Assembly (NCBI GenBank): GCA_947474545.1
Contig: CANJJI010000015.1
Coordinates: forward strand, 1-49,300
DNA: 49,300 nt
Source: Beijerinckiaceae bacterium
Lineage (GTDB): Bacteria > Pseudomonadota > Alphaproteobacteria > Rhizobiales > Beijerinckiaceae
Direction of reading: 5' to 3'
Below the pieces are notes generated by a model. That model did no database searches and was not told the DNA's origin. It saw only the letters and a list, made by a program, of their open reading frames with translations. Made by a program: the position numbers and the translations under genes. Position 1 is the stretch's first letter; every line of letters begins with the position of its first letter. Of the stretch, positions 2,725 through 31,871 are shown piece by piece.

Positions 2725-3906
2725 TCACGCCGCTTTCGCGAGCGCAGCTTTTGTTTGTGCAAAAGCCCAGTCGAGCCATTCGGTGAGGGCTGTCACGTCA
2801 TCAGACTCAATCGTGCTGCCGCACCAGACGCGCAGGCCGGCAGGTGCATCGCGATAGCCGTCGATATCGAAGGCGATCTTCTCTTTTTCGAGCAATGCCG
2901 CGAGGTCCTTGACGAATTTCGCCTGGGCGTCTTCGGGCAGGGAGGCTATCGCGGGATCGACGACTTTCAGGCAGACGCTGGTGTTCGAGCGGATGGCTGG
3001 CGACGAGGCGAGGAAATCCACCCAATCGGTTTTGCGAACCCAATTCGCCATGACGGCGAGGTTGGAATCGGCCCGTCCTGCAAGGCCTTCCAGCCCGCCG
3101 ATGGATTTGCCCCATTGCAGCGCGTCGATATAATCCTCAACGCAGAGCATGGAGGGCGTGTTGATCGTATCGCCAACGAATATGCCTTCGATCAGCTTGC
3201 CGTTATTGGTCATGCGGAAGATTTTCGGCATTGGCCATGGCGGCGTATAGGTCTGCAACCGTTCGACAGCGCGGGGGCTGAGGATGAGCATGCCGTGCGC
3301 GGCTTCGCCGCCCAGCACCTTTTGCCAGGAGAAAGTGACGACATCGAGCTTGGAGAAATCCATGCGCTGGGCAAAGCAGGCCGACGTGGCGTCGCAGATC
3401 GTCAGGCCTTTGCGATCAGCTGGGATCCAGTCAGCATTGGGCACGCGCACGCCTGAGGTGGTGCCATTCCAGGTGAAGACGACGTCATTGTCGAAATTCA
3501 CGGTGGAGAGATCGGGGATTTCGCCGTAACCGGCTTTCAGGATGCGCGCGTCTTTCAGTTTGAGCTGTTTGGCGACATCGGTCACCCAGCCTTCGCCAAA
3601 GCTTTCCCAGGCGAGCATGTCAACGCCGCGCGCACCGAGCAGCGACCACAGCGCCATCTCCACAGCGCCGGTATCGGAGGCGGGGACGATGCCGATGCGA
3701 TAATCGGCGGGAACTTGCAGGACTTCGCGGGTGAGATCGATGGCGAGCTTCAGCTTCACCTTGCCAACCTTGGCGCGGTGAGAGCGGCCAAGCGGCGCGT
3801 CTTTCAGATTTTGAAGGGACCAGCCGGGCCTTTTGGCGCAGGGGCCGGATGAGAAGTTGGGGTTTGCCGGGCGGTTTGCGGGCGTAGAAATTGTCATAAT
3901 GGCCAT
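2725..3906 (-). CDS. serC: phosphoserine aminotransferase (the second ATG at 3897 fits the AAAGG Shine-Dalgarno better)
   Basis: 393-aa [21 protein letters not shown] start and [30 protein letters not shown]-lysine region. Confidence 0.96.
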
Positions 3907-3990
3907 CCTTTCAGATGAGCGCCTCCCGTTGGGGGGAGGTGTCCCGCTGCGGGCGATACGCGAGAACAGGTCCGCGCGTCAAGCGTTCTT
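3907..3990 (-). promoter_or_regulatory. serC-motif-like 5' leader RNA
   Basis: Minus-strand leader gcgcggacctgttctcgcgtatcgcccgcagcgggacacctccccccaacgggaggcgctcatctgaaagg, directly upstream of serC. Stems CCCG-CAG-CGGG and CCTCCC-CCCAAC-GGGAGG end next to the SD. Matches my recollection of the alphaproteobacterial serC motif (Corbino et al. 2005); not searched. Confidence 0.65.
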
Positions 3991-4086: not shown

Positions 4087-4971
4087 TCAGTCGATCATGT
4101 AGCGAACGCCGATGCGGTACTCGCTGATCGAGTTTGCTTTTGCCGTGGAGGTGTATTTGCCAAGATTGACGTAGCGGTAGCCCATGTCGATCTTGGCATT
4201 CGGTGTGACATCATAGGCAATGCCGGCCATGAGCGCCCAGGCCATGTTGAAATTGCGGCGAGAAATCGTGGCGCGATGATCCTGCACGCCAAACTGAGTG
4301 ATAGGTTTGGCAACGACGTTACCGTTGTTGTCCAGCCATACCTCGGGAAGCGGAGACGGATTTGGCATTGTCAGTGTGGGGCCGTAGTGAAGACCATTGG
4401 CTGCCGTATACCAATCATAATTGCCGGCTGCCCGGCTATAGACTGTGCCTACGCCCGCGCCGACATAGGGCGATACGCCTGCCCAGGTTCCAAGATCCAG
4501 ATAACCGTTGAACAACAGGGTATGGCGGCCCAGCGACCCCGTCTGTTTGGAATAGCAGCTGTTTTCCTGAGCGTGAAGCGCCACCAGAACGCCGTTCACA
4601 TCGTTCACCGGATTGACACCATCGTAGCACGTGAAGTTCGCAGACTGGGTAGCGACATTCAATTGCTTGAAGTAGTTGTATGTCATATCGGCGCGGAACC
4701 AATTGTTGAATTTGTATCCGGGGCCGATGTTGAGTGACCATGAATTCTGTTGTTTCGATGATTTTGCCAATGCAAGATCAGGAAAAACGGAAGGTGTTTT
4801 CTCGCGCGCCCAAGTGATATCTCCGCGCAAATACCAGCCGGTGCCGAACTCAAGTTTCTCTTGTGAGCCAAGCGCGGGGGCTTCGGACGGGAACATGTCG
4901 GCGGCGCTTGCGCCTGCAATGATGCAGGCGCTGATCGCACAAGCAGCAGAGATGGACTTGATGACTGACAT
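4087..4971 (-). CDS. outer membrane beta-barrel protein (Omp25/Omp31-like)
   Basis: Signal peptide ending ASAAD; GWYLRGDITW near the N-terminus; terminal YRIGVRYMID. Confidence 0.85.
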   Translation of the reverse strand: MSVIKSISAACAISACIIAGASAADMFPSEAPALGSQEKLEFGTGWYLRGDITWAREKTPSVFPDLALAKSSKQQNSWSLNIGPGYKFNNWFRADMTYNYFKQLNVATQSANFTCYDGVNPVNDVNGVLVALHAQENSCYSKQTGSLGRHTLLFNGYLDLGTWAGVSPYVGAGVGTVYSRAAGNYDWYTAANGLHYGPTLTMPNPSPLPEVWLDNNGNVVAKPITQFGVQDHRATISRRNFNMAWALMAGIAYDVTPNAKIDMGYRYVNLGKYTSTAKANSISEYRIGVRYMID

Positions 4972-5194: not shown

Positions 5195-6076
5195 TTAGTA
5201 CTTGCGAACCAGCGGTTGTTGAAAGGCGACCGGTGCAGGCGCCGAAGTAAAGCCGGAGTCGCCGAACATATAGCGCAGGCCGACGCGAACTTCGTTTGAG
5301 GAGAGCTTCACGCGATGTGTTTCAAAGCCGCAAGCAGCCGCGCCGCCGCAGTCGATACGGCCGCTGTTCATGGCGCCCTTGTCGAGGTAACGATAGCCGA
5401 TGTCGAGCTTCATGTTCGGCGCCAGATTGACCGCCATGCCAGCCATGACCGCCCACGCGAGATTTGTCTTGGAAACGGCAGGCGAGGTGCCAAAGCCGCC
5501 CTGATTGATGCCATTGTCGGTGATAGAGCCGATACGATTGTTAGCCATACCGACGCCAAGGCCGAGGTATGGGGTCACGTTGTACCATGTGCCGAGATCC
5601 ACATAACCATTGGCAAGGAATACGGCGCTTGAGATATTGCCGTGATAGAGATCGACGCAGCGATTGGCATTTCCGCAGGGCGCGACGGGAGCCGCCGGGC
5701 CCGTGTAGGATTCGACCTGCCGCCAGCGAGCGCCGCCTTGATATTCAGCTGTTGCATCAGCCCGGAACCAGCTGTTGAACTGATAGCCAACGCCCACGCC
5801 GGCCATCAAATGCGAAGACATCGATCCCTGGTCATATTGCAGTCCAGGCACTGCAAAGCCCGGATCGAAACTGGAACGGAATTTTTCCTGACGATTCTGG
5901 CCGATGCCGATATCTCCACGGATGTACCAGCCGGAAAACTCGGCGGCTGGCATTGAGTGCGGAGCCTCGACCGGCGGCGGCGGCGGCAAGATGTCTGCTG
6001 CGAATGCTGACCCCGCAGTCAGAGCAATCGTGCTCGATAATGCGAGGGCTTTTATACTGCCCTTGAAAACGCCCAT
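5195..6076 (-). CDS. outer membrane beta-barrel protein (Omp25/Omp31-like); start trimmed to MGVFKGS
   Basis: Signal peptide MGVFKGSIKALALSSTIALTAGSAFAAD, GWYIRGDIGIG, terminal SSNEVRVGLRYMFGDS. ORF track start at 6139 precedes the signal peptide. Confidence 0.85.
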   Translation of the reverse strand: MGVFKGSIKALALSSTIALTAGSAFAADILPPPPPVEAPHSMPAAEFSGWYIRGDIGIGQNRQEKFRSSFDPGFAVPGLQYDQGSMSSHLMAGVGVGYQFNSWFRADATAEYQGGARWRQVESYTGPAAPVAPCGNANRCVDLYHGNISSAVFLANGYVDLGTWYNVTPYLGLGVGMANNRIGSITDNGINQGGFGTSPAVSKTNLAWAVMAGMAVNLAPNMKLDIGYRYLDKGAMNSGRIDCGGAAACGFETHRVKLSSNEVRVGLRYMFGDSGFTSAPAPVAFQQPLVRKY

Positions 6077-6362
6077 GGCGGAATTCCCTAATTGTGCCGG
6101 GCACGACACGGCCCACGCGAATGACGACAGGGCCAACATGGGGAAAAGATGTTAAAGTCCGATTAAGCCTAAAAATTAAGGCTGATATTGTGTTAAGGGG
6201 CGGCTGGCCGGGGCTGCCAGGGCGCAGTTTATGTGATGGGAATTACTTGTAGATTTCATCAATAGTATCGGTGCGTAGGCTTCTTGAAGGCGGGCAATTG
6301 CCTCCTTCAAGCATTGCTCAACCTGCGCGTCAGCCCTTATCCGGGCGTGGAAAACTAGAATT

Positions 6363-23679: not shown

Positions 23680-24483
23680 TCAGAAGCGATAGTTCAAGCC
23701 TGCCTTGATTGTATGGAAGTCATTTTGATGGCGGCTGGTAATTGTGGCGCCTGTTGGCACGCCTCCGGGTGTGAAGACGCTGCCAGCCAGTTTCTCTGGA
23801 CCCAGATTGACGTATTGATATTCAAGTTTTGCCGACCAGTTGCGCGAGAAGGCGTATTCAACGCCGGAGCCAAGGGTCCAGCCGATGCGAGTCTTGTCTG
23901 ATCGCAACAGGGCTGTGTTTCCTACGCCATCGATTGTCGACAGGCTATTCCTGCCGCCGCCATAGGCAAGGCCGCCCGTTACATAGACGAGCGTGCGGTC
24001 GAACGCATAACCGACCCGCGGGCGTAATGTTCCATACCATTGTCCGGAACTGCGGCCGTTAACAATCGTGCCGTCGGGCAGGGTTGCGGGGCCGACGCGA
24101 TGTTTGCCCGGCGCGAGAGTCTGTATGTCCGTTTCGATGCCGGCAACAAGGTTGCCCACCTGCCAATTATATCCGGCCTGCAGGCCAAGAACTGGCGCAA
24201 CGCGATGACCGCCGCCGATGGAATTGAGACCTGTTCCCGGCGGGTTCACAAAGGCCGATGTATTTTTTCCGCCCGCGCCCGCTGCGCCAGCGTTCACACC
24301 CACATAAAATCCAGTCCAAGTGAATGGAGGAGCCTGCGTGAAGATGGGGGCAGGCGGCAAAGCGCCTGCGCGCGTGGGTATATCGGCCGCGTATGCGGTG
24401 AAGCCAGCCGTCAGGATTGTGATGTGTGTAGCTGCGGCGAGCAGGAAGCTACGCGATGCGGATGATGTGGAGATGTATCTCAT
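23680..24483 (-). CDS. outer membrane beta-barrel porin-family protein
   Basis: Signal peptide; PPFTWTGFYVGVNAGAAGAG; YAFSRNWSAKLEYQYVNLG; terminal HTIKAGLNYRF. Confidence 0.88.
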   Translation of the reverse strand: MRYISTSSASRSFLLAAATHITILTAGFTAYAADIPTRAGALPPAPIFTQAPPFTWTGFYVGVNAGAAGAGGKNTSAFVNPPGTGLNSIGGGHRVAPVLGLQAGYNWQVGNLVAGIETDIQTLAPGKHRVGPATLPDGTIVNGRSSGQWYGTLRPRVGYAFDRTLVYVTGGLAYGGGRNSLSTIDGVGNTALLRSDKTRIGWTLGSGVEYAFSRNWSAKLEYQYVNLGPEKLAGSVFTPGGVPTGATITSRHQNDFHTIKAGLNYRF

Positions 24484-24708: not shown

Positions 24709-25503
24709 TCAGTATTTGGCAACCACTGCACCGGCCGGGCCACCGAAGCGGTAATTCAGGCCGAGACGGACCTGCCAATGGGCCTGGGTTTCCGAAGTTG
24801 TCAGGAAGGCCGGAGCCCCAAATGGGGTTAGCGGGAGGCTCTTCTTGGGAATCAGGGTGTAGAGTCCTTCGACCTTAGCGCTCCAGTTATTGTTGATTGC
24901 GTATTCGATGCCGCCACCAAAGACGGGCGCCAAACGGACGTTGCTCGTTGACAGTGGTGTGCCGCCAAATGCTACCAAGCTGTATTTCACGTTCGTGGCA
25001 CTGATGCCGGCTGTTGAGTAAATGAGCGCCTGACCAAAGGCATAGCCGATGCGGGCGCGCAGCGTGCCGGACCAGTCACGTGAAGCGCTGGTTGTGACGA
25101 CAGCAGCGATGGGCGCGGGATAAAGGCCGGAGAAGGTTGACTTGCCGGACATGAGCGTCACGTCGGCTTCGACACCATAAACAAGCGCGCCGGTCTGCCA
25201 GTTGTAGCCAGCCTGCAAGCCGCCGAGGACGCCGCCAGCCTTCAGGTTGCCGCCGATATTGCGGACCGTAAGAACTCCGCCCGGATTGGTAATGTGGTGA
25301 ATGCCAACCTTGTCATCATAGGTGCGGCCATATCCGGCATGCAGACCTGCATAATACCCTTCCCAATTGTACCCGCCAGAGGCAAGTAGGGGCGGTGGCG
25401 GTGCGAGTGAAGGGCCGGGAGCGGGAATGTCAGCAGCCTGGGCGGCTAGTGAGACCAATCCAGCGCTAAATATCGTAAAAGCAAAGTGAATGCGGCTATT
25501 CAT
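24709..25503 (-). CDS. outer membrane beta-barrel porin-family protein; start trimmed to MNSRIHFAFTIF
   Basis: Signal peptide MNSRIHFAFTIFSAGLVSLAAQAAD; GYNWEGYYAGLHAGYG; YAINNNWSAKVEGLYTLI; terminal VRLGLNYRFG. The N-terminal 130 aa of the tracked ORF is non-coding-like. Confidence 0.88.
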   Translation of the reverse strand: MNSRIHFAFTIFSAGLVSLAAQAADIPAPGPSLAPPPPLLASGGYNWEGYYAGLHAGYGRTYDDKVGIHHITNPGGVLTVRNIGGNLKAGGVLGGLQAGYNWQTGALVYGVEADVTLMSGKSTFSGLYPAPIAAVVTTSASRDWSGTLRARIGYAFGQALIYSTAGISATNVKYSLVAFGGTPLSTSNVRLAPVFGGGIEYAINNNWSAKVEGLYTLIPKKSLPLTPFGAPAFLTTSETQAHWQVRLGLNYRFGGPAGAVVAKY

Positions 25504-25809
25504 CCGGTGGCTCCAAAGCTCAGCTGTCAACCACGTTGTTAGCGCAAAAAAAGTTTCAGTATGGTTAATGTAACGTGAATACGATTTGACGTGCACGCGT
25601 TTTTGAATGTGAAGCTGTCGTAGCAATGTCACGTTCCAAAAATAGTGAAAAATATGATTTCTATTCGAAAAATGTCTCAGAAGGTGCTCTGGTACTAACG
25701 GGACGCGGCACGCCCGATTGCGAACGGGGCGCGACGAATGCAAAATACCTTGACCTGATCGCAGGGCGGGATTAGACAATATCAAACGCGCGGGATGCCC
25801 GGGGCGGTA

Positions 25810-25860
25810 ATGAGGTTCGTGGTGAACGGTTCCATTCTTGTAGTAGGTTCGGCGCCTTAG
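25810..25860 (+). CDS. ilvB leader peptide MRFVVNGSILVVGSAP (in-frame upstream ATG at 25795 gives MPGAVMRFVVNGSILVVGSAP)
   Basis: Short ORF with VV and ILVV clusters; stop codon sits at the 5' arm of the following hairpin. Confidence 0.75.
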   Translation: MRFVVNGSILVVGSAP

Positions 25861-25902
25861 ACGGGACGGGGATAACCCCGGCGACCCGCCCAAGGCGCTT
25901 TC

Positions 25903-25926
25903 AAGGTCCCTCCCGGGGCCTTTTTT
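25903..25926 (+). terminator. attenuator terminator ahead of ilvB
   Basis: 8-bp stem (one G-U), TCCC loop, followed by T-tract 25921-25926. Confidence 0.8.
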
Positions 25927-25975
25927 ATTGTCTGGAACCCGACTGACAGGACGAAAGCAAACGGAGTTTAGTCAA

Positions 25976-27736
25976 ATGGCCAAGCAGATGACCGGAGCGG
26001 AAATGGTGGTGCAGGCCCTGGCCGATCAGGGCGTGGATACGGTGTTCGGTTATCCCGGCGGCGCCGTCCTTCCGATTTATGACGCCATATTTCACCAGAA
26101 TTATGTGAAGCATGTTCTGGTCCGCCACGAGCAGGGCGCCGGCCATGCGGCTGAGGGCTATGCGCGTTCGACAGGCAAGGTTGGCGTGTTGCTGGTGACA
26201 TCAGGTCCCGGCGCGACCAATGCGGTCACAGCGCTGACCGATGCCTTGATGGATTCCATTCCGCTAGTCTGCCTCACAGGGCAGGTGCCGACCCATCTGA
26301 TTGGCTCGGACGCTTTTCAGGAATGCGATACAGTCGGCATTACCCGCCATTGCACCAAGCATAATTACCTTGTGCGCTCGATAGAAGATCTGCCGCGCAT
26401 TCTGCACGAAGCCTTCCATGTGGCGCGTTCGGGTCGCCCGGGGCCTGTGGTTGTTGATTTGCCGAAGGATGTGCAATTCGCAACCGGCGACTATAATTTC
26501 GTCAAGAACATCACACACAAAACCTATCAACCCAAAATGAAGGGCGATCTCGACAAGATCAAGCAGGCGGTCGAGATGATGGCGCAGGCGAAGCGTCCGG
26601 TGTTTTACACAGGTGGCGGTGTCATCAATTCGGGCAAGCCCGCCTCAGATACATTGCGGGAACTGGCCGGCCTGACAGGGTTTCCCGTGACCTCGACCTT
26701 GATGGGTCTTGGCGCCTATCCAGCCAATGGCAAGCAATGGCTGGGAATGCTGGGGATGCACGGCACATACGAAGCCAATCTCACCATGCATGGCAGTGAT
26801 CTCATCATCTGCGTGGGCGCACGTTTTGACGATCGCATCACCGGCAGGCTCGATGCTTTTGCGCCAGATGCAAAGAAGATCCACATCGATATCGACCCAT
26901 CTTCCATCAACAAGAATGTGAAGGTCGATCTCGGCATCATCGGCGATTGCGGTCACGTGCTGGAAGACATGGTGCGCCTGTGGCGCAGCGAGGCCCGCAA
27001 ATCCGACGCAGCGGCGCTATCAGAATGGTGGAAGCAGATCGACATCTGGCGCAAGCGGAACTCGCTGGCGTTCCGTAACTCCAAGAACGTGATCAAGCCG
27101 CAACATGCTGTGCAACGGCTTTATGAGCTGACCAAGGATCGCGATACTTATATCACGACCGAGGTTGGTCAGCATCAGATGTGGGCTGCACAACATTATC
27201 ATTTCAACGAGCCGAACCGCTGGATGACATCGGGCGGCCTTGGCACGATGGGCTACGGATTACCCGCCGCCATAGGCACACAGATGGCGCATCCGCAATC
27301 CCTGGTGATTGATATCGCCGGCGAAGCTTCGATCCTGATGAACATTCAGGAGATGTCGACCGCGCATCAATACCGGTTGCCGGTGAAAATCTTCATCCTT
27401 AATAACGAATACATGGGCATGGTGCGCCAGTGGCAGGAGTTGCTGCATGGCGGGCGTTATTCGGAAAGCTATTCGGCTTCATTGCCCGATTTTGTGAAGC
27501 TTGCGGACGCCTATGGCGCCAAGGGCATTCGCTGTGACGATCCGGCCAAGCTCGATGACGCTATCATGGAGATGATCAATCATCCCGGCGCTGTGATCTT
27601 TGATTGTCTCGTAGACAAGGAAGAAAACTGCTTCCCGATGATCCCCTCGGGCAAGGCGCATAATGAAATGATCCTCGCCGATGTGGATCAGGATATCGGC
27701 GCTGTCATTGATGAAAAGGGCAAGATGCTGGTGTGA
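25976..27736 (+). CDS. ilvB: acetolactate synthase, large subunit
   Basis: MAKQMTGAEMVVQALADQGVDTVFGYPGGAVLPIYDA; TPP-enzyme signature region GGLGTMGYGLPAAIGTQMAHP ... NNEYMGMVRQWQEL. Confidence 0.97.
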   Translation: MAKQMTGAEMVVQALADQGVDTVFGYPGGAVLPIYDAIFHQNYVKHVLVRHEQGAGHAAEGYARSTGKVGVLLVTSGPGATNAVTALTDALMDSIPLVCLTGQVPTHLIGSDAFQECDTVGITRHCTKHNYLVRSIEDLPRILHEAFHVARSGRPGPVVVDLPKDVQFATGDYNFVKNITHKTYQPKMKGDLDKIKQAVEMMAQAKRPVFYTGGGVINSGKPASDTLRELAGLTGFPVTSTLMGLGAYPANGKQWLGMLGMHGTYEANLTMHGSDLIICVGARFDDRITGRLDAFAPDAKKIHIDIDPSSINKNVKVDLGIIGDCGHVLEDMVRLWRSEARKSDAAALSEWWKQIDIWRKRNSLAFRNSKNVIKPQHAVQRLYELTKDRDTYITTEVGQHQMWAAQHYHFNEPNRWMTSGGLGTMGYGLPAAIGTQMAHPQSLVIDIAGEASILMNIQEMSTAHQYRLPVKIFILNNEYMGMVRQWQELLHGGRYSESYSASLPDFVKLADAYGAKGIRCDDPAKLDDAIMEMINHPGAVIFDCLVDKEENCFPMIPSGKAHNEMILADVDQDIGAVIDEKGKMLV

Positions 27737-27815: not shown

Positions 27816-28364
27816 ATGACCGATATCGCTTCTCTTTCTCCCTATTCCTCCGCCACGGTGCGCTCGAATGCCGAACGCCACACATTGTCTGTGCTTGTCG
27901 ATAACGAGCCTGGCGTACTGGCGCGCGTCGTTGGCCTGTTTTCAGGCCGGGGCTACAATATCGAGAGCCTGACGGTAGCTGAAGTTGCCCATGCCGAGCA
28001 TTGGTCACGCATCACGATTGTCACCACCGGCTCGCCCGAAGCGATCGAACAGATCAGCCATCAGCTTGAACGTATTGTGCCGATTCACAAGGTGACCGAT
28101 CTCACCCTGCACGGGCGTTCTATCGAGCGCGATCTGGCGCTGATCAAGGTTGCCGGCAAGGGGGAAAACCGCATTGAGGCCCAACGGCTCGCGCAGGCGT
28201 TCAATGCCAAGATCGTCGATACGACCCTGGAAAGCTTCATATTCGAACTCTCAGGCAAGCCGGAAAAAATTGACGATTTTGTCGAACTTGTGCGGCCATT
28301 GGGTCTTGTGGAGCTGGCGCGTACGGGCATTGCTGCTTTGTCGCGCGGGCCTGTAGCGAGCTGA
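27816..28364 (+). CDS. ilvN: acetolactate synthase, small (regulatory) subunit
   Basis: ACT domain: RHTLSVLVDNEPGVLARVVGLFSGRGYNIESLTVAEV. Confidence 0.97.
   Translation: MTDIASLSPYSSATVRSNAERHTLSVLVDNEPGVLARVVGLFSGRGYNIESLTVAEVAHAEHWSRITIVTTGSPEAIEQISHQLERIVPIHKVTDLTLHGRSIERDLALIKVAGKGENRIEAQRLAQAFNAKIVDTTLESFIFELSGKPEKIDDFVELVRPLGLVELARTGIAALSRGPVAS

Positions 28365-30743: not shown

Positions 30744-31871
<1,128 letters not shown>

Follow-up and report, generated by a model that had tools for sequence, protein, structure and literature searches.

How is the ilvBN operon of this Beijerinckiaceae bacterium controlled, and does the short region in front of it act as a switch? In the window (the whole stretch of 49,300 nucleotides that was analysed), a mini-ORF, a stem and an intrinsic terminator all sit 50 bp upstream of ilvB-ilvN, and ilvC lies further downstream, from position 30852. 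An earlier note, made from the letters of the window, had read this region as a transcription attenuator with a Val/Leu/Ile leader peptide, and direct reading of the window showed its letters and coordinates to be correct throughout. In-frame ATG codons lie at 25795 and 25810, the TAG stop occupies 25858-25860, GCGCCTT (25852-25858) and AAGGCGC (25892-25898) are complementary arms, GGGAC (25863-25867) is complementary to GTCCC (25906-25910), and the terminator at 25903-25926 consists of AAGGTCCC-TCCC-GGGGCCTT followed by a T-run. The features of the locus are as follows.

25750-25755 (+): -35 hexamer TTGACC of the predicted promoter; conserved site in 77/81 loci
25773-25778 (+): -10 hexamer TAGACA of the predicted promoter, after a 17-nt spacer; TAAACA in relative L002
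25812-25815 (+): candidate ribosome binding site GAGG for GTG 25822, from the sequence; L002/L003 have AAGG/GAGG there
25821-25937 (+): match to the whole model of RF02502 Atu_C8, 42.6 bits, below the gathering score of 50
25822-25860 (+): probable leader peptide ORF, MNGSILVVGSAP-stop, with GTG start; L002 and L003 have ATG at the corresponding position, Ile/Leu/Val-rich peptide in 81 loci
25834-25845 (+): putative regulatory codons ATT CTT GTA GTA (Ile Leu Val Val), from leader codon bias
25852-25858 (+): stem P1, 5' arm, pairing with 25892-25898; covariation
25863-25865 (+): inner stem P1b, 5' arm GGG, covarying with 25885-25887; part of the strand that the earlier note took for an antiterminator
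25867-25880 (+): apical hairpin P2, CGGGG-AUAA-CCCCG, predicted by folding
25885-25887 (+): inner stem P1b, 3' arm; covariation
25892-25898 (+): stem P1, 3' arm; covariation
25903-25926 (+): intrinsic terminator, 8-bp stem 25903-25922 and T-run 25921-25926; terminator scan, arms prefer their own partner
25976-27736 (+): ilvB, acetolactate synthase large subunit, controlled gene; NCBIfam NF006581 above cut-off
27816-28364 (+): ilvN, acetolactate synthase small subunit, controlled gene; NCBIfam NF008864 above cut-off

The folding energy of the window's single sequence is not unusual (z -0.33), so that proof must rest on comparison; the number of terminators found in the window is at chance level (1 against 1.1 expected). 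We gathered ilvB loci from 41 related genomes and 80 named contigs, reorienting those on the minus strand, and examined 110 upstream regions, which include a few same-genome duplicates and the window's own. In 81 of them, a short ORF carries three to four Ile/Leu/Val codons within four codons and ends shortly before an intrinsic terminator. These leaders span the Hyphomicrobiales, the Rhodobacterales and one member of the Caulobacteraceae; examples are MFGRKIVVGAAPRTGQG in a relative with 92% ilvB identity, VARKLIVVSSAPQQGRG in Rhizobiales bacterium 62-17, MRKLILVVRAPSTERD in Microvirga, MKNLNVLIVVGRRMGRMV in Agrobacterium and MRTLVVIVGNTRMGR in Ruegeria. A homologous leader was present in the same-genus ilvB loci examined. 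The ILVV cluster of the window, at 25834-25845 in a short ORF before ilvB, is the arrangement expected of an alphaproteobacterial ilv attenuator.

In most of the remaining regions (Parvibaculum, Hyphomicrobium and others), the leader is absent or the terminator changed, and two contigs among the regions without a leader are too short. At L048, L050, L059 (Parvibaculum) and L062 (Hyphomicrobium), ilvB has a TTGACC-type promoter, and neither leader peptide nor terminator was found; at the Parvibaculum and Hyphomicrobium loci without a leader, control may have been lost or be of a different kind. Locus L094 retains the leader peptide MKTALILVGWRVGKAV just before ilvB, with the stem and the 5' arm of the terminator missing; this gap reflects either a deletion or an assembly collapse.

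Codon choice within the leaders is strongly skewed. GTA accounts for 50% of leader Val codons, versus 1.7% of those in ilvB at the same loci (odds ratio 58), and CTT makes up 52% of the Leu codons versus 6.5%; the sequences are related and a p-value is not to be taken literally, and the bias is far outside background. Such a bias would fit selection for codons that stall the ribosome sensitively, and its strength predicts the valyl-tRNA for GTA as a main signal. The choice of GTA could also partly reflect avoidance of pairing within the leader instead of tRNA sensing.

The comparison also bears on where the leader peptide begins and ends. The earlier note had placed the start at ATG 25810, with ATG 25795 as an option. 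L002, the closest relative (98% ilvB identity), has no ATG at 25810. At the position of the window's GTG 25822, both it and the next closest, L003, carry an ATG; AAGG or GAGG lies six to seven nucleotides 5' of that ATG in both, and in the window GAGG (25812-25815) lies six nucleotides before the in-frame GTG. On this evidence from L002 and L003, we rejected both upstream ATG codons as starts and consider that translation probably begins at GTG 25822, which would give the peptide MNGSILVVGSAP. The stop, on which the ribosome argument of the earlier note was built, is atypical of the family. In most relatives, 24-30 nt separate it from the last branched-chain codon, which places it within or close to the apical hairpin loop; in the window and L002 the distance is 12 nt, and the window's leader stops about 15 nt sooner than most. 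L009/L011 and Bosea also have the 12-nt distance, separately from the window and L002. Readthrough of the window's TAG would give TGRG-stop, ending much as the relatives' peptides do.

In 77 of the 81 loci, the leader ORF is preceded, at a similar distance, by a promoter-like site of the form TTGAC-N16..18-TAnnnT, against 5.2 expected from shuffles. Upstream of the window's leader ORF the conserved site, recognised by its sequence alone, reads TTGACC-17-TAGACA and predicts a transcription start at about 25785. In most of the Rhizobiaceae-type loci (L071-L107), about 8 nt separate the end of the -10 box from the leader ATG, so the leader RNA is probably leaderless and their leader peptides are probably translated from it as such; in the window, this distance is about 37 nt and includes a ribosome binding site. 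Translation from a leaderless RNA is known for trpL of S. meliloti. At the other end of the element, ATTGCC directly after the T-run is conserved across the Hyphomicrobiales, and the window reads ATTGTC at 25927-25932. No pairing partner was found for this motif; pairing with the codon region, an outer helix suggested by the Rfam model, was rejected (z 0.05).

The stem between the peptide and the terminator is conserved by compensatory change. P1 and P1b are paired in 91% of cells, versus 38-52% in slid controls, with 22 double-change cells versus 10 in shuffles (0/500). Cognate pairing is much stronger than swapped pairing both for the P1/P2 halves (z -20) and for the terminator arms (z -10.6), while P2 and the inner sequence vary freely among relatives. 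P1 starts 6 nt past the last Val codon and overlaps the end of the leader ORF, and the conserved terminator lies between that ORF and the first gene.

The element also matches a described RNA family. The window aligns with the whole RF02502 Atu_C8 model at 42.6 bits (E 2e-7 locally, about 4e-7 (4.2e-7) for the genome), the sole match of that family in its genome; with a gathering cut-off of 50, it is homologous by position and alignment and a non-member by Rfam's own cut-off. Relatives exceed this cut-off at their ilvB leader. RF02502 matches occur in 62 of 121 genomes of the order and in none of 14 controls, and nearly all of the matching genomes hold a single copy. An exception is G047, an assembly of about 1890 contigs with two matches (G047:C1559 and G047:C1049), reflecting either a duplication or a mixed assembly. 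All 30 matches that were fetched, the window's included, lie directly before an acetolactate synthase gene; this linkage identifies RF02502 as the conserved ilvB/ilvI attenuator leader. A literature search for 'Atu_C8' returned nothing relevant. Judged by sequence comparison, the element is far beyond chance, given the RF02502 match, the homologous leaders in the same genus and the covarying stem.

Elsewhere in the window, Rfam RF00517, the serC leader, matches at 3898-3949 on the minus strand (66.6 bits) and overlaps the start of a serC-like gene at 2725-3906 on the same strand. Four outer-membrane beta-barrel-like proteins are encoded at 4087-4971, 5195-6139, 23680-24483 and 24709-25503, all on the minus strand; judged by eye, they are apparently a paralogous set.

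Our results indicate that the region very probably controls the ilvBN operon by ribosome-mediated transcription attenuation. The comparison supports the peptide, its codon bias, the P1/P1b stem, the terminator, the promoter and the gene linkage; from these we infer that ribosomes stall and in which direction the operon responds, and also, because no conserved antiterminator was found, how stalling blocks the terminator. Transcription would begin near 25785, and a ribosome would initiate at GTG 25822 and translate the leader peptide. With sufficient charged Ile, Leu and Val tRNA, the ribosome would reach the stop, the terminator at 25903-25926 would form and RNA polymerase would leave, with release of a roughly 140-nt leader RNA. 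If branched-chain tRNAs are uncharged, above all the Val-tRNA for the rare GTA, the ribosome would stall at 25834-25845 and its front edge would open the base of P1, so that termination would fall and ilvBN would be transcribed.

The earlier note had proposed a more specific switch, in which a stalled ribosome frees GGGAC (25863-25867) to pair with GTCCC (25906-25910), breaking the terminator, and a ribosome at the stop masks GGGAC. This masking logic fits the positions, and the complementarity is present in the window and in its closest relatives, L002 and L003. Across 29 loci, however, the helix is complete only in these three (L001-L003), and in most the central A faces C or G. The percentage paired is no better than in shuffles (229/500), and the excess of two-sided changes is weak (five cells versus 2.6 in shuffles, 13/500). 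The GGG strand instead covaries with 25885-25887 inside the stem, and its cognate pairing with the terminator is not clearly stronger than swapped pairing. Within the genus, pairing between this strand and the terminator is slightly stronger than in shuffles (z -2.2). Strand A of the Rhizobiaceae-type set favours its own terminator arm (z -3.8), yet its pairing is poorer than that of shuffled strands (z +4.5); this preference was therefore not counted as support.

We therefore rejected GGGAC/GTCCC as a conserved antiterminator, given the three complete helices in 29 loci and a paired fraction at shuffle level. Antiterminators formed from the 3' half of P1, or by pairing with the 3' arm of the terminator, showed no cognate preference, and duplex pairing tests and truncated-transcript folds across relatives revealed no other conserved antiterminator and no consistent stall-specific one. 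When equilibrium folding was masked by the ribosome footprint, the terminator of relatives stayed formed in nearly every ribosome state; in the window, contrary to the model, a ribosome at the stop weakened it most, and it stayed at 0.96 in the stalled state. The Val/Leu/Ile attenuator of the earlier note thus stands, strongly supported by peptide, codons, stem, terminator, promoter and position; its specific antiterminator is not supported. We consider that exact switch unlikely; a short, non-covarying helix between a G-run and a C-run is possible in this genus. The absence of a conserved antiterminator is a gap in the textbook picture of attenuation. A broader proposal, that alphaproteobacterial ilv attenuators switch without a classical exclusive antiterminator (by kinetics, or by P1 opening beside the terminator) and that the released Atu_C8 RNA is also a trans-acting sRNA, strikes us as rather improbable.

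Rfam files RF02502 as 'Gene; sRNA' and 'Rhizobiales sRNA', and by that filing the element would be a stand-alone trans-acting sRNA, its terminator merely ending the RNA and ilvB having a promoter of its own. A leader RNA freed by termination would indeed resemble an sRNA, and the trp attenuator RNA rnTrpL of S. meliloti is an sRNA with a dual function (PMC10117765). But the constant adjacency of RF02502 to acetolactate synthase genes and the conservation of an Ile/Leu/Val leader ORF with rare GTA codons speak against this, as does the short distance from the window's terminator to ilvB, about 50 nt, in which no promoter-like site was found. We regard a stand-alone sRNA as very unlikely; besides attenuating, the RNA may also act in trans. 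Because RF02502 is the ilvB/ilvI attenuator leader, sRNA annotations in the Rhizobiales need revising. That P1, P1b and P2 form a compact, conserved structured element might suggest a ligand-binding riboswitch or a protein-bound leader, but there is no Rfam riboswitch match, P2 and the inner sequence are free to vary and the conserved ORF has Val/Leu/Ile codons with synonyms biased to rare ones, which makes ribosome-independent control scarcely credible.

Attenuators of this kind are already known. PMC4117421 (citing Tarleton 1994) describes ribosome-dependent attenuation of C. crescentus ilvBN by a leader in which Ile and Val codons stand in tandem; as described there, it resembles the window in its leader, operon, terminator and bacterial class. 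Our Caulobacteraceae relative L088 has the same layout as the window, whereas its sequence and peptide differ. For S. meliloti, an 'ilvIH cis regulatory' element is listed in PMC2573895 (citing Vitreschak 2004); it and RF02502 occupy the same place before ilvB/ilvI as the window's leader. Relatives of the S. meliloti group, with leaders such as MKNLNVLIVVGRRMGRMV, match RF02502 at 99-121 bits, against 42.6 bits over the whole model for the window, which differs from this type in its early stop and its score below the gathering cut-off. The S. meliloti trpL/rnTrpL system is likewise an alphaproteobacterial leader-peptide attenuator yielding a small RNA, but it uses Trp codons before trpE, and rnTrpL has been shown to act in trans. 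In C. glutamicum, the ilvBNC attenuator encodes the peptide MTIIRLVVVTARRLP with the control codons Leu CUU and Val GUA and has a terminator before ilvB (PMC11857589). These features are shared with the window; C. glutamicum, however, is an actinobacterium with a tested antiterminator overlapping the terminator (PMC11857589), and none such was found in the window. What is new is this member of the known kind, with its early leader stop; it supplies a leader gene and a regulatory element for the branched-chain operon in an alphaproteobacterium that has received little study.
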